Shown here in pieces: positions 1,976 through 41,821 of a stretch of 64,000 nucleotides of DNA. Below the pieces are notes generated by a model. It was given only the letters and a program-made list of their open reading frames with translations, did not search any database and had not been told where the DNA came from. Origin of the DNA: Oceanimonas sp. GK1 (GTDB lineage: Bacteria; Pseudomonadota; Gammaproteobacteria; Enterobacterales; Aeromonadaceae); assembly GCF_000243075.1 (NCBI RefSeq), contig NC_016745.1, positions 492,501-556,500 of the forward strand, written 5' to 3'. How positions within the stretch are numbered: the stretch's first letter is position 1; every line of letters starts with the position of its first letter. A program made the translations under genes and the position numbers.

Positions 1976-3397
1976 ATGAACGATAAAAAAAGCAGAATAG
2001 ACGTCAAGGACGTTACTCCAAAACCGCGTTCTCACCGGCCCGCCGATGACGGTCATATTTACGTTAGGGCACAAACCGGAAGATGGCAGCGCCTGCGCAA
2101 GCAGATGGGCTGGCTGCTGATGCTGGTATTCCTGCTGGGTCCCTGGATCCAGTGGAACGGCAATCAGGCCATTCTGCTCAATGTGGAGCAGCAGCGCTTT
2201 CATGTGTTCGGTACCACCCTGTGGCCCCAGGATCTGACCCTGCTGGCCCTGCTGTTTATGGTGGCGGCCTTTGCCCTGTTTTTTCTGACCACCTTTCTGG
2301 GGCGGGTATGGTGCGGCTACCTGTGTCCGCAGACGGTATGGACCTTTATCTTTATCTGGTTTGAGGAAAAGTTTGAGGGCAGTGCCAACAAGCGCCGCCA
2401 GCTCGACAAGGCGCCCTGGAGTTTCAACAAGATCTGGCGCAAGGCCGCCAAACATACCGGCTGGCTGGCGGTATCGCTGCTGACCGGTTTTACCTTCATT
2501 GCCTACTTTATTCCCGCCCAAGAGCTGGCCTGGGGACTGCTGACCTTTTCCGCCAGTTTCTGGGCCGGCTTCTGGGTGCTGTTTTTTGCCTTCTGCACCT
2601 ACGGCAACGCCGGCTTTATGCGCACCATAATGTGCACCCATATGTGTCCTTATTCCCGTTTCCAGTCGGCCATGTTCGACAAGGACACCTATATCGTCAG
2701 TTACGATGCCGAACGGGGTGAAACCCGTGGACCCCGTCCCCGCAAAAAGGATCCGAAGGAGTTGGGCCTGGGGGACTGCATCGACTGCGACATGTGTGTG
2801 CAGGTGTGCCCGGCCGGCATCGATATTCGCGATGGCCTGCAGTATGAGTGCATCAACTGTGGCGCCTGTATCGATGCCTGTGATCAGACCATGGAGCGCA
2901 TGGGTTATGAGCCGGGTTTGATCAGCTATACCACCGAGCACAAGCTGGTGCACAAAGAGACCCATGTGGCTCGCCCTAAGCTGATTGGCTACGGCATCGT
3001 CATGGTGATCATGCTGGCGGCCTTTGCCTTTATGGCCACCCGCATCATGCCCATGGGGCTGGAGGTGATTCGGGATCGCAACCAGCTTTACCGGGAAACC
3101 GCCGAGGGCCTGGTGGAAAACACCTATACCCTGAAGCTGCTGAACAAGACTCTGGCGCCGGCCACCTACCAGCTGAGTGTGGAAGGCATGGACGACGCCG
3201 AGTGGATTGGCCCGGCGGAAGTCAGCATTGATGGCGGCGAGGTGCTGAGCCTGCCGGTCAGCCTGTCCGCAGATCCCTACCTGCTGGATTCACCGGTGCG
3301 GGACATTACCTTTGTGATGCGTCGCAAGGGCGCGAATGCCGACGAGGCCAAGTCTTCGGTACGTACCGAGAGCAAGTTCTTCAGCGCCCTGCGCTGA
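1976..3397 (+). CDS. ccoG: Cytochrome c oxidase accessory protein CcoG (RdxA/FixG family)
   Basis: A 473-residue membrane iron-sulphur protein. Members of this family act as cupric reductases that supply Cu(I) for cbb3 oxidase assembly. About five hydrophobic segments are visible (roughly residues 42-58, 82-108, 160-180, 190-215 and 337-358). Two ferredoxin-like clusters follow: C268, C271, C274, C278 and C292, C295, C298, C302, each ending in a fourth Cys three or four residues on. The C-terminal third is a periplasmic Ig-like FixG domain. Elsewhere the gene usually sits with ccoNOPQ or ccoHIS; none is next to it here. Its neighbour cueR also deals with copper, which fits the reductase role. 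I see no CueR-type site directly before ccoG. Confidence 0.93.
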   Translation: MNDKKSRIDVKDVTPKPRSHRPADDGHIYVRAQTGRWQRLRKQMGWLLMLVFLLGPWIQWNGNQAILLNVEQQRFHVFGTTLWPQDLTLLALLFMVAAFALFFLTTFLGRVWCGYLCPQTVWTFIFIWFEEKFEGSANKRRQLDKAPWSFNKIWRKAAKHTGWLAVSLLTGFTFIAYFIPAQELAWGLLTFSASFWAGFWVLFFAFCTYGNAGFMRTIMCTHMCPYSRFQSAMFDKDTYIVSYDAERGETRGPRPRKKDPKELGLGDCIDCDMCVQVCPAGIDIRDGLQYECINCGACIDACDQTMERMGYEPGLISYTTEHKLVHKETHVARPKLIGYGIVMVIMLAAFAFMATRIMPMGLEVIRDRNQLYRETAEGLVENTYTLKLLNKTLAPATYQLSVEGMDDAEWIGPAEVSIDGGEVLSLPVSLSADPYLLDSPVRDITFVMRRKGANADEAKSSVRTESKFFSALR

Positions 3398-35956: not shown

Positions 35957-36616
35957 ATGATTTCCTCTGAACAATACCGTACGGCGCTGATCCGCCTGTC
36001 GTTGTTTCATATTGCGGTGATCGCCGCCAGTAACTATCTGGTGCAGTTGCCCTTTACCCTGTTTGGTTTTCATACCACCTGGGGCGCGCTCAGTTTTCCC
36101 TTTATCTACCTGGCCACGGATCTGACGGTGCGCATCTTTGGCGCCGGACTGGCCCGGCGCATCATTTTTGCGGTGATGCTGCCGGCCCTGGCCAGCTCCT
36201 ATGTGCTGTCAGTGCTGTTTTTTGAGGCCAGCTACCAGGGCCTGGGGGCGCTGTCTGAATTCAACCTGTTCGTGGCCCGCATCGCTCTGGCCAGTTTTAT
36301 GGCTTATGTGCTGGGGCAGATCATGGATGTATCGGTATTCAACCGGCTGCGTCAGATCAAGGCCTGGTGGGTGGCGCCCACCTGCTCCACCATTTTCGGC
36401 AATCTGGTCGATACCCTGGCCTTTTTCAGCCTGGCGTTCTGGCGCTCGCCGGATCCCTTTATGGCCGAGCACTGGGTGGAGATCGCCTGGGTGGATTACG
36501 GTTTCAAGCTGGTGTTCAGCTTAGGCCTGTTTGTGCCCGCCTACGGCCTGCTGCTGAAATACCTGAGCCGCAAGATGCTGGGCGAGGAGCAGGCGGCGCT
36601 GCAAACCAGCCGCTAA
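35957..36616 (+). CDS. yhhQ: Queuosine precursor transporter YhhQ
   Basis: A 219-residue inner-membrane protein with about six hydrophobic segments, of the YhhQ/ECF-like vitamin uptake family. E. coli YhhQ imports the 7-deazaguanine precursors preQ0 and preQ1 for tRNA queuosine. Conserved features seen are SFPFIYLATDLTVRIFG and the WWVAPTCSTIFGNLVDTLAFF segment. AAAAAGG precedes ATG 35957 by six bases. A short structured leader lies upstream. Confidence 0.92.
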   Translation: MISSEQYRTALIRLSLFHIAVIAASNYLVQLPFTLFGFHTTWGALSFPFIYLATDLTVRIFGAGLARRIIFAVMLPALASSYVLSVLFFEASYQGLGALSEFNLFVARIALASFMAYVLGQIMDVSVFNRLRQIKAWWVAPTCSTIFGNLVDTLAFFSLAFWRSPDPFMAEHWVEIAWVDYGFKLVFSLGLFVPAYGLLLKYLSRKMLGEEQAALQTSR

Positions 36617-37383: not shown

Positions 37384-37416
37384 TTGCAATAATAAATGAT
37401 AACGATTATCGTTAAC
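37384..37416 (+). promoter_or_regulatory. ryhB promoter with Fur box
   Basis: TTGCAA (37384-37389) and TATCGT (37407-37412) are 17 bp apart. GATAACGATTATCGTTAAC at 37398-37416 matches 15 of 19 positions of the Fur consensus and covers the -10, so Fe-Fur would block transcription when iron is plentiful. Confidence 0.85.
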
Positions 37417-37419
37417 TTG

Positions 37420-37533
37420 CTTTCCGAACAGTGCCGCCCATTCAGACGTTGGCGCAGGCAGCTTGCGAAGGCACGACATTGCTCACATTGCTTCCAGAGT
37501 TTTTCAGGCCGGCTTAATGCCGGCCCTTTTTTT
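37420..37533 (+). ncRNA. ryhB: RyhB small RNA
   Basis: Positions 37471-37497 carry the signature core of RyhB (CACGACATTGCTCACATT, then GCTTCCAG), the part that pairs with target mRNAs. A Rho-independent terminator follows: GGCCGGC (37507-37513) with GCCGGCC (37519-37525) and seven T residues. A Fur box covers the promoter. RyhB acts with Hfq to shut down iron-using proteins under iron starvation. The 5' end is inferred from the promoter; the RNA would be about 110 bases, longer than the 90 of E. coli. Confidence 0.92.
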
Positions 37534-37574
37534 GTGCTGACAAGCGAGCTGCTGCGCTCAGCCATGCGTCGTTG

Positions 37575-37620
37575 AAAAGCGGCTCAAAATGCTCATGTAC
37601 TACAAGTACACTCCGCTTTT
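37575..37620. repeat. Nested hairpin downstream of elbB
   Basis: AAAAGCGG (37575-37582) pairs with CCGCTTTT (37613-37620), and inside it TGTACT (37596-37601) pairs with AGTACA (37605-37610). Either strand ends in a T-rich arm. It lies 68 bases past the elbB stop and between convergent ryhB and elbB, so it may terminate elbB; the nested form looks like a dispersed repeat. Confidence 0.6.
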
Positions 37621-37687
37621 TCGCCACTTTTCGCCTCGCCTGGCTTTCGCTCGCGACGCTCGTGAAACACTGGCTGTGACTGAACTT

Positions 37688-38335
37688 TTACATCTCCAGC
37701 AGGCGTTTCACCAGTTTGCCGATGCCGGTGTCGGCCTCGGTAATGCGCTGGGCCAGCATGTAGGCGGGGGTGGAGATCACCTTGTAGTGCGCGTCTTCCA
37801 CCACGTCGGTAACGGCGCAGCCAATGTGTTCGCCCCCCATGGCGGTAAAGGCCTCGGCGGTGGCGGCGTCTGTGCCTATGGTGCCCTTGACGCCGGCCGG
37901 GTAAATACGCGGGATCAGCACCGGTGCAATGCAGCAATAGCCGGCGGGTTTGCGGGCCTGGGCAAAGGCGTGGCAGGCGGCCAGCACCTCGTTGTCGACC
38001 TCGCATTCGGCCCCTTCAAAGGCAAAATTACACAGGTTTTTGGCCACGCCAAAACCGCCCGGCAGCAGCAGGGCGTCAAAATCACTGGCGTTGAGCGCCG
38101 ACAACGGCTGAATGTCGCCCCGGGCAATGCGGGCGGCTTCGGTCAGCATATTGCGCTGCTCGTCGCTTTCCTGGCCGGTGCGGTGATCGATGACGTGATG
38201 CTGGGGCTGGTCGGGAGCAAAACACTGGTAGCGAGCTCCGTGGCGGTCCAGGTGTAACAGGCAGAGCACGGCCTCGTGAATTTCCGCGCCGTCATACACG
38301 CCGCAGCCGCTCAGAATAACGGCAACTTTTTTCAT
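37688..38335 (-). CDS. elbB: Isoprenoid biosynthesis glyoxalase ElbB
   Basis: A 215-residue class I glutamine amidotransferase-like protein (DJ-1/PfpI superfamily). E. coli ElbB has glyoxalase activity and was named for an effect on isoprenoid synthesis. It opens MKKVAVILSGCGVYDGAEIHE; the nucleophile Cys lies in a GYCCIAP segment near residue 135, and LLLPGGFGVAKNL is the conserved loop. The length matches E. coli (217). The gene is divergent from polA, with 312 bases between the starts. Confidence 0.94.
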   Translation of the reverse strand: MKKVAVILSGCGVYDGAEIHEAVLCLLHLDRHGARYQCFAPDQPQHHVIDHRTGQESDEQRNMLTEAARIARGDIQPLSALNASDFDALLLPGGFGVAKNLCNFAFEGAECEVDNEVLAACHAFAQARKPAGYCCIAPVLIPRIYPAGVKGTIGTDAATAEAFTAMGGEHIGCAVTDVVEDAHYKVISTPAYMLAQRITEADTGIGKLVKRLLEM

Positions 38336-38647: not shown

Positions 38648-41383
38648 ATGGTTGCCATTCCTGCCAAACCCCTGATCCTGGTTGATGGATCCTCCTATCT
38701 TTATCGTGCTTATTTTGCGTCCCAGCAAGCCGATCTGCGCACCAGCGACGGCCGGCCCACCGGCGCCATTCGCGTGGTGACCAACATGCTGCGCAGCCTG
38801 CACAAGCAGTTTCCCGAATCCAGGGTGGCGGTGGTGTTCGATGCCAAGGGCAAAACCTTTCGCGACGACATTTACCCGGAATACAAGGCGCACCGGCCGT
38901 CCATGCCGGACGATCTGCGCAGCCAGATACAGCCCATTCACGACATCATTCGCGCCATGGGGCTGCCGCTGCTGATCGAGGAAGGGGTGGAGGCGGACGA
39001 CGTGATTGGCACCCTGGCCCGGCAGGCCACCGAGCAGCGGCTGGACGTGGTGATCAGCACCGGCGACAAGGACATGGCCCAGCTGGTGTCGGATCACGTG
39101 CTGCTGATGGACACCATGAAAAACAGCTTTCTCGATCGGGACGGCGTGGTGGAAAAATTCGGCGTGCCGCCGGAGTCGATTATCGATCTGCTGGCGCTGG
39201 TGGGCGACAAGGTAGACAACATTCCCGGCATGCCGGGGGTGGGCGAGAAAACCGCCCTGGCGTTGTTGCAGGGGCTGGGCTCCATCGACGACATCGCCGC
39301 CAACACCGACAAGATTGCCAGCCTCGGCTTTCGCGGCGCCAAGTCCTTTGCGCCCAAGTTCGTCGAGCACGAGGAGATGGTGCGGCTGTCCTACACCCTG
39401 GCCACCATCAAGACCGATGTGGCGCTGCATGTGGGCCCCGCGGATCTTCAGCAGACGGCGCCGGACACCGAGGCCCTGCGCGCCCTCTATCAGGAATTTG
39501 AATTCCGCAATCTGCTGGCGGAGCTGGAGTCGGACTCGGCCGGGGAAGCCGTACCGGCGGCACCGGCGCTGGAGACCGACTATCAGACCGTAACCGGCCA
39601 GGCCGAGCTGGATGAATGGATTGCCCGGCTCAAGGCGGCGCCCTATTTCGCCTTTGATACCGAGACCACCAGCCTCAGCTACCGGGATGCCCGGGTGGTG
39701 GGGGTGTCGTTTGCGGTGGAGGCGGGCCAGGCCGCCTATGTGCCCTTTGGCCACGATTACCTGGATGCCCCCGAGCAGCTGAGCGAAGCGCAGGTGCTCG
39801 GGGCCCTCAAGCCGTTGCTGGAGGATGAAAGCCGCATCAAGCTGGGCCAGAACCTCAAATACGACATCAACGTGCTGAAAAACCACGGTATTGCGCTGAA
39901 GGGCGCGCTGCTTGATACCATGCTGGAGTCCTATGTGCTCAATTCGGTACAGACCCGGCACGACATGGACAGCATGGCGGCCTTTTTCCTCAATCACAGC
40001 ACCACATCCTTTGAGTCCATTGCCGGTAAGGGTGCCAAACAGCTCACCTTTAACCAGATCCCTCTGGAGCAGGCGGGGCCCTATGCGGCGGAAGACGCCG
40101 ACATTACCCTGCGGCTGCATCACCATCTGAGCGAAAAACTGGCTGCCGAGCCGGTGCTGGAAAGCGTGTTCAATGATATTGAGATGCCGTTGGTGCCGAT
40201 TCTGGCCCAGATGGAATACACCGGCGTGCGCATCGACAGCCAGCTGCTGGCCATGCAGAGTGAGGAAATAGCCAAGCGGCTGAAGGAGCTGGAGCGGGAG
40301 GCGTTTGAGCTGGCCGGTGAGCCCTTTAACCTGAGCTCCACCAAGCAGCTCGGCGAGATCCTGTTCACCAAACTGGCACTGCCGGTGATCAAGAAGACCC
40401 CCAAGGGAGCGCCGTCCACCGCCGAAGAAGTGCTGCAGGAGCTGGCGCTGGATTACCCGCTGCCCAAACTGCTGATGGAATACCGGGGCCTGAGCAAGCT
40501 CAAGTCCACCTACACCGACAAGCTGCCGCTGATGGTGAATGAGCACAGCGGGCGCATTCATACCTCCTACCACCAGGCTAACACCGCCACCGGCCGGCTG
40601 TCGTCGTCGGATCCCAATCTGCAGAACATTCCCATCCGCACGCCGGAAGGGCGGCGCATTCGCCAGGCTTTTGTGGCCGAGCCCGGCTACAAACTGGTGG
40701 CGGCGGACTACTCCCAGATCGAGCTGCGCATCATGGCGCACCTGTCCCAGGATCAGGGGCTGCTGGACGCCTTTGCCCACGGCCAGGACATTCACAAGGC
40801 CACCGCCGCCGAGGTGTTCGGGGTGGCGGTGGAGCAGGTGTCTGCCGAGCAGCGCCGCCGGGCCAAGGCCATCAATTTTGGCCTGATCTACGGCATGAGT
40901 GCCTTTGGTCTGGCGCGCCAGCTGGGCATTGGCCGCAACGAGGCCCAGGACTACATGAACATCTACTTTGAACGCTACCCCGGGGTGCTGCGCTACATGG
41001 AGACCACCCGGGAGCAGGCCAGTGAACAGGGCTATGTTTCCACCCTGTTCGGCCGCCGGCTCTACCTGCCGGAAATCAAATCCAAGAACGGCGCCCGGCG
41101 CAAGGGTGCCGAGCGGGCCGCCATCAACGCGCCCATGCAGGGCACTGCCGCCGACATCATCAAGCAGGCCATGATTCGAGTGAATGACTGGCTGGGTGAG
41201 CTGCCCGAGGGCGAGGTACGCATGCTGATGCAGGTGCACGACGAACTGGTGTTTGAAATTCGTGAAGACAAGGTAGACGCCCACCGGGAAACCATCTGCG
41301 CGCTGATGCAGCAGGCCGCCAGTCTGGATGTGCCCCTGCTGGTGGAAGCCGGGGTGGGTGACAACTGGGATCAGGCTCACTAA
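38648..41383 (+). CDS. polA: DNA polymerase I PolA
   Basis: A 911-residue polymerase with all three activities. The 5'-3' exonuclease domain spans about residues 1-300, the 3'-5' proofreading domain starts with [10 protein letters not shown] near 337 and keeps its acidic residues, and the polymerase domain has motif [15 protein letters not shown], motif [15 protein letters not shown] and motif [13 protein letters not shown] 38648 is chosen because the protein then begins like other PolA ([17 protein letters not shown]); 20 open codons upstream cover the leader. Spot 42 RNA follows, as in E. coli. Confidence 0.97.
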
Positions 41384-41600: not shown

Positions 41601-41689
41601 TCCAACTCCATTTTTGTTGTTAAGTTACATTTTTGTGAGTGAATGCGTCGACTGGCATTTGGCCAGTGGGCTGGGTATTATCGTGCGAT

Positions 41690-41777
41690 TGGTCGGGGAG
41701 CCGAAAGGCCGAGACGGCAGTGATATGCCGAACCCGTTGAACCTGATCCAGTTAACACTGGCGTAGGGAACCGATGG
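41690..41777 (+). promoter_or_regulatory. TPP riboswitch (THI element)
   Basis: The segment holds the conserved THI-box parts in order: GGGGAGCC, CCGAGA, GAACCTGATC, GTTAACACTGGCGTAGGGA and a closing stem CCGA against TCGG. It would bind thiamine diphosphate and lower expression of the next gene. Between its end and thiD are only about 45 bases, with no clear terminator, so control is probably at translation. A separate perfect hairpin ACTGGC/GCCAGT lies upstream at 41651-41667. Confidence 0.95.
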
Positions 41778-41821
41778 CCGATGGCCTTGTGGTTTTCACG
41801 CCTTACAAGGACCATAAGGAC

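Follow-up and report, generated by a model that had tools for sequence, protein, structure and literature searches.

In this study, we analysed a window of 64,000 nucleotides from the genome of Oceanimonas sp. GK1 (the window being the whole stretch of DNA analysed) and found in it a locus which, on its sequence, is a complete and ordinary member of the known RyhB family. RyhB is a small RNA (sRNA) produced by many bacteria under iron shortage. With high confidence, we regard the locus as an orthologue of RyhB, a Fur-repressed, Hfq-dependent and iron-sparing sRNA, whose best supported target is sodB, the gene of the Fe superoxide dismutase, through a site in the mRNA leader. The locus itself is routine and gives a marine genus one more annotated iron-sparing sRNA; of greater weight is the comparative result that one sRNA-target pair is traceable across several families with differing site positions. 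Its features are collected in Table 1.

Table 1. Features of the ryhB locus and its syntenic neighbours, in window coordinates
Feature	Position	Strand	Basis or remark
yhhQ, queuosine precursor transporter, syntenic neighbour	35957..36616	+	NF008406, 365.1 bits
-35 element TTGCAA	37384..37389	+	sequence; 4/6 to TTGACA
Fur box GATAACGATTATCGTTAAC	37398..37416	+	16/19 to GATAATGATAATCATTATC
-10 element TATCGT	37407..37412	+	sequence; inside the Fur box, 17 nt after the -35
Predicted RyhB transcript, ~114 nt	37419..37532	+	start set by the -10 and by the conserved hairpin's first base
5' stem-loop	37419..37472	+	folds and pair counts, 22 genus sequences
Rfam RF00057 RyhB match	37467..37532	+	model positions 1-67, 73.5 bits
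Pairing core GACATTGCTCACATTGCTTCC, two near-repeats of ACATTGCT	37475..37495	+	sequence
Intrinsic terminator, 7-bp G+C stem and T7	37507..37533	+	terminator scan and sequence
elbB, syntenic neighbour	37688..38335	-	NF008747, 325.3 bits
polA, DNA polymerase I, syntenic neighbour	38648..41383	+	NF004397, 1210.9 bits

The initial annotation had described a full RyhB locus with a Fur box and had proposed a covariance-model search as a check. This search matched the Rfam RyhB model (RF00057) in the 64-kb window at 73.5 bits against a gathering threshold of 55 (E 7.1e-12), the single match reported for the model in the whole 3.53-Mb host genome; together with the Fur box, promoter-like elements and the terminator, it bears the description out. 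The 27 letters at 37471-37497, put forward as identical to the E. coli pairing region, equal the RF00057 consensus in the model alignment. With 37467-37532 as BLAST query, a place was found in 5374/5426 E. coli genomes; identity was 95-99% in 5366 records, and all but 4 covered less than 80% of the query, a pattern which fits a core common to both. The remark that the locus is absent from protein-based annotation is true, but it would be true of any sRNA, and an Rfam scan finds ryhB at once. At the same locus, the suhB/mmgR, Hrs12 and SorX models scored far under their gathering scores. In the open-licence literature, no paper was found on RyhB in Oceanimonas or Oceanisphaera, and the matches listed for Aeromonas held no dedicated study of RyhB, which was otherwise mentioned in reference lists.

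The Fur box is the top-scoring 19-mer of the 64-kb window and covers the -10 element; the next-best 19-mers match at 14/19, one of them being an overlapping register of the same box. A box in this position had been proposed with 15 of 19 matches; box and position stand, and the best register does one better against the 19-bp consensus as printed in PMC2964681. At the place of the -35 element, TTGC was kept in 30/30 ryhB loci compared. The predicted start, at about 37419, is the first base of a hairpin found in most genus relatives. Downstream, the terminator agrees with the earlier description of a 7-bp stem and seven T residues: the stem (37507-37525) encloses a loop of 5 and is followed by C and by T7 at 37527-37533, and the scan found one terminator-like site against a mean of 0.5 in shuffles. 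The host genome carries genes for both putative protein partners, fur (159.4 bits) and hfq (100.3 bits). It encodes two Hfq-family proteins (L218 at C1:1168621 and L219 at C1:981250), and the second Hfq-family protein is divergent, with a charged, His/Asp-rich tail, and scores 76.8 bits to TIGR02383.

RNA structure was assessed on a genus alignment of 22 of 26 places; L013, L047 and L050 were set aside for a long 5' arm or an additional core unit, and L045 for a score under the threshold. In the outer helix of the 5' arm, 37419-37424 (GCUUUC) pairs with 37467-37472 (GAAGGC), and 95.4% of cells were paired over nine pairs; in the terminator helix all cells (100%) were paired, one pair changing from G-C to A-U in 7 of the 22 sequences, and the inner part of the 5' arm was unpaired in the consensus structure. 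The RyhB and sodB-leader structures were derived from the same alignments as were counted, which favours them over slid controls. For the whole RyhB structure, covariation score and double-change cell count lay above all 500 column shuffles; its two pairs with double-sided changes (reached by 481/500 shuffles) and its further pair types (reached by 472/500) did not exceed the shuffles. The core GACATTGCTCACATTGCTTCC was invariant across the 22 sequences, save an extra repeat unit in L051. Such a third 9-nt unit (CACATTGCT three times, not twice) is present in L050 (G059) and L051 (G053), the similar loci L004 as well as L005 and L012 have two units, and the pairing core looks to have expanded independently. 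The Rfam model spans the 3' 67 nt and does not include the 5' arm. From its difference to E. coli, the initial annotation had argued that the target set may differ; the divergence holds, but what changes is mostly a hairpin with a conserved outer helix, and sequence change alone is no argument for other targets. Both terminal stem-loops of E. coli RyhB are required for its activity on both targets tested (PMC4231740), and because these end stem-loops are needed there, the divergent 5' arm is, by analogy, best read as a scaffold.

In named genomes, an exact 33-base search hit 12 stretches; these belong to Oceanimonas, Zobellella and Oceanisphaera, the named genera of the host's group, and to one Aeromonadales metagenome bin. 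Under stricter filters, by which weak matches may be missed, RyhB was present in 59/75 genomes of the host's family, Aeromonadaceae (23/23 in the host genus, 36/37 in g2, and 0/1, 0/3 and 0/11 in three other groups), and 110/295 genomes of the order sample had a match at E <=0.001, 80 of them over threshold. Group names here and below are inferred (the sister group g2 is taken as Aeromonas and f22 as Vibrionaceae; the name of f19 is likewise inferred). The gene order in the window is ydiU-yhhQ-(a gene without family match)-ryhB-elbB-polA. elbB adjoins 23/26 genus ryhB places, the 3 exceptions being extra copies (L010 in G056, L044 in G050 and L045 in G049); yhhQ adjoins 23/24 g2 loci read, and polA adjoins ryhB in 5/5 f22 loci examined among the best-scoring order matches. 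In Vibrio and Shewanella, ryhB lies downstream of VC0106 and its orthologue SO4716 (PMC2964681). The window order joins the yhhQ-linked and polA-linked arrangements, which speaks for vertical descent, and the host ryhB thus looks vertically inherited.

Several further observations concern extra copies and the surrounding sequence. The second ryhB copies in G050 and G056 (L278 3269-3330 and L279 3796-3859, both on the minus strand) lie upstream of, and codirectional with, transporter genes, which by a family scan of L278 include those of a ZnuA-family binding protein and of an ABC ATPase, and these genomes are the two whose sodB site is without the 9-mer described below. In G049, L280 carries at about 2785-2850 (+) a diverged RyhB core with a terminator, below the Rfam threshold, directly after a putative esterase gene and ahead of a TonB receptor gene; no Fur box of its own was found there, and it is perhaps a 3'-UTR-derived RyhB relic. 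Within the window, the stretch 3' of the ryhB terminator (37553-37652) matches three places of a 1.8-Mb Halomonas record at 81%, and 30 of its bases recur exactly next to ryhB in G058; it is likely a dispersed intergenic repeat, and a search for internal repeats within 37533-37700 was negative. A TPP riboswitch (41684-41786, 69.2 bits) is located downstream of polA, and 987-1309 covers the last part of a ribosomal RNA operon, in which a 5S gene stands on each side of a tRNA. Among the records consulted, NZ_AP026896.1, a chromosome-sized 4.9-Mb record of Aeromonas caviae, is filed as a plasmid.

Comparison of sodB leaders supports the target prediction of the initial annotation. AGCAATGTC, a 9-nt complement of the RyhB core, was located at -49 to -56 in 21/23 genus genomes, a count which takes no account of relatedness and does not stand for 21 independent events. 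The host leader GAAGCAAGCAGCAATGTC is complementary to both core repeats, with 7 and 9 pairs. The two leaders missing the 9-mer, G056 (7 nt) and G050 (6 nt), both retain AATGTC; in the leader alignment, no other six consecutive columns ahead of the Shine-Dalgarno are all invariant. By the longest perfect complement, a measure chosen with its 8-nt cut-off after the sites had been seen and not blind, an 8-nt complement occurred in 5.2% of shuffled sodB leaders, and control leaders had none of at least 8 nt (polA 0/26, yhhQ 0/12 and elbB 0/26, rows which count some genomes twice, and Mn-SOD 0/3; longest 6). This measure with control genes replaced a test of duplex energies (duplexfold, 200 shuffles per leader), in which large bulges opened and the p-values were uneven: the host sodB-RyhB duplex reached -27.5 kcal/mol (p 0.03 vs shuffled leaders), p ranged from 0.005 to 0.27 over 23 Fe-SOD leaders, with G055, G041 and G044 near 0.25, and from 0.12 to 0.16 for 3 Mn-SOD leaders. 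The Fe-SOD leaders of g2 carry GCAATGTC at -51 to -54 in 12/13 cases, and in the thirteenth (L201) the site is at a similar distance. In addition, a short hairpin lies between the sodB site and the Shine-Dalgarno; counted on the alignment from which it was derived, 4/5 of its pairs changed on both sides, which 3/500 shuffles reach. By comparison, sodB is the best supported target, and well supported, and the relatives suggest that RyhB shuts it off via a site well upstream of the start codon.

The sodB site could instead serve as the start of a leader peptide, as a protein site or as part of the hairpin itself, the match to the core being a matter of chance. An ATG does lie within the site in 23/23 genomes, and its frame continues into sodB in 8/23; yet this ATG occurs in all three phases relative to sodB, so that coding does not explain it, and the frames vary in length and sequence. 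Other families weigh further against such a role, since their complements differ in place and sequence yet match the core. In 18 genomes of other families, hand-picked for a RyhB match (several under the Rfam threshold) and compared without regard to relatedness, with the window's RyhB core applied to all and SOD types assigned from first residues, a core complement of at least 8 nt was found in 14/16 leaders of Fe-SOD type (two of uncertain metal type), the two without it being those of G150 and G089. Leaders of Mn-SOD type had none (0/9), and random 100-nt windows of retrieved loci had one in 2.4%. We therefore consider a role of the site apart from RyhB unlikely, and pairing of RyhB with the sodB leader remains the preferred reading.

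The position of the site differs among these families. In E. coli (L277), AGCAATGTC lies over the sodB start codon (-4), and the f19 genome has its site over the start codon as well; in the two genomes of f13 it is at the start codon or the Shine-Dalgarno. In f22, the site was found at the start codon in 4/5 genomes and at -49 in 4/5, and f11 has both; elsewhere it was at -45 (f2, both genomes), -31 (f16, 1/2), -42 (f17, 1/2) and -18 (f5). The part of the core used for the complement also varies between families. This pattern fits site turnover around an older sRNA-target pair. On balance, we lean slightly towards the view that RyhB-sodB control predates the enterics and that the site wandered while the pairing stayed, from the start codon (E. 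coli), through the start codon together with -49 (most f22 genomes read), to a leader-only site at -49 to -56 in Aeromonadaceae, with a route outside the ribosome footprint and a covarying hairpin. In PMC4114697, all RyhB mRNA sites of its set were inferred to have arisen after the Enterobacteriales split, with site turnover allowed for; if true, an older RyhB-sodB control would revise this origin of known RyhB sites. The pair would also offer a natural test of RyhB's reach from the start codon and of sRNA site turnover.

Other candidate targets fared less well. First, two further predictions of the initial annotation, sdhC and fumA, found little or no complement: sdhC had none of at least 8 nt between -80 and +20 in 22/22 genus genomes, a measure blind to gapped or distal pairing, and class I fumarase had one in 0/21 leaders, with a 6-nt match, GGAAGC, over the Shine-Dalgarno in 20/21 that is too short to claim. 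Second, the host genome holds 25 occurrences of AGCAATGTC and 9 of a backward control; of the 25, 6 belong to copies of a single repeated frame and one to ryhB, and given these the excess was not counted as a sign of selection. The six near-identical host stretches (L170, L171, L173, L176, L178 and L184), each with AGCAATGTC inside the one frame, are a repeated element, perhaps a transposase gene. Third, an ORF-based look at same-strand leaders outside frames left two sites, that of sodB and that of a gene for whose 495-aa part propionate-CoA ligase is the best match, under the curated cut-off. The site of this ligase-like gene was kept in 6/8 orthologues, several with much leader in common, and the gene is a weak candidate target. 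A third site (L189) overlaps the possible start of an uncharacterised frame.

The locus might also be a decayed or silent RyhB, kept in sequence by recent descent after loss of expression and function. A strict promoter scan called no promoter at the locus, because the -35/-10 pair (TTGCAA, 17-nt spacer, TATCGT) has 8/12 consensus letters where at least 9/12 are required, and a relative does hold a relic-like extra copy (L045 in G049, with 5 core mismatches and a best Fur match of 11/19). Against decay, among the 50 of 62 family RyhB places read for core and Fur box, the core 25-mer was unchanged in 41/50, whereas the 5' arm diverges, and a Fur box of at least 13/19 was present in 49/50; the terminator, the outer helix and the sodB site are kept as well. 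A relic is thus very improbable. Less probable still is a dual-function RNA that doubles as the message for a RyhP-like peptide, the proposal made for EHEC ryhB with its nonapeptide MAHIASSIT from an ATT start (PMC5331693): the core here has the corresponding ATT frame, but it reads IAHIASRVFQAGLMPALFLC and passes through the terminator and so through the whole predicted transcript without meeting a stop, so that the nonapeptide frame is not kept. A different Fur-controlled iron sRNA, of PrrF type or otherwise, that merely resembles RyhB can practically be dismissed, since the PrrF model (RF00444) aligns over 37385-37534, mostly along the Fur box region and terminator, at only 25.5 bits (E-value 0.026) against a gathering score of 90, while RyhB scores 73.5 and the neighbouring genes place the locus with other RyhB loci.

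For an orthologue of RyhB, we infer from the sequence that the RNA is expressed, that Fur binds the box and Hfq the RNA, and that sodB is repressed. When iron is present, Fe-Fur on the box over the -10 would silence ryhB. Under iron shortage, transcription would yield the ~114-nt RNA, comprising the 5' hairpin, the open core, a U-rich stretch and the terminator, and its core would pair with mRNAs of iron-using proteins. In the sodB leader, the first core repeat, GACAUUGCU, would pair with AGCAAUGUC, some 50 nt ahead of the AUG; the second, UUGCUUC, would pair with GAAGCAA immediately 5' of AGCAAUGUC, and the conserved hairpin follows downstream of the site. The usual ribosome footprint extends from about -20 to +19. 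Because the sodB site lies outside this footprint, start-codon blocking is less likely, and repression would more likely proceed via mRNA decay, a ribosome standby site or the leader hairpin.

Compared with known systems, the host RNA shares with E. coli RyhB (RF00057, 90 nt) the core, a promoter with a Fur box, stem-loops at both ends and sodB as target, which is a predicted one in the host (PMC2964681, PMC4231740). It differs in a longer predicted transcript with a 5' arm outside the Rfam model, in a sodB site about 50 nt upstream of the AUG where E. coli has AGCAATGTC over the start codon, and in the RyhP frame, which is not kept. RyhB of Shewanella oneidensis (168 nt) likewise has a core homologous to that of enterics and a Fur box of 15/19, and sodB is repressed on its overexpression; it did not control sdhCDAB or acnA in the account given by PMC2964681, which agrees with the lack of a match in host sdhC, but its transcript is longer and its neighbourhood, downstream of SO4716, is its own (PMC2964681). 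Vibrio cholerae RyhB, at 215 nt, is much longer than the host RNA (PMC2964681), and its pairing with sodB uses regions other than in E. coli (PMC4114697); gene order is shared between the host and f22, in which polA adjoins ryhB. RyhB is among the RNAs predicted by genome annotation for A. salmonicida (PMC8780938), and g2, taken as Aeromonas, has the same yhhQ-ryhB order, a Fur box and a sodB site at -51 to -54.
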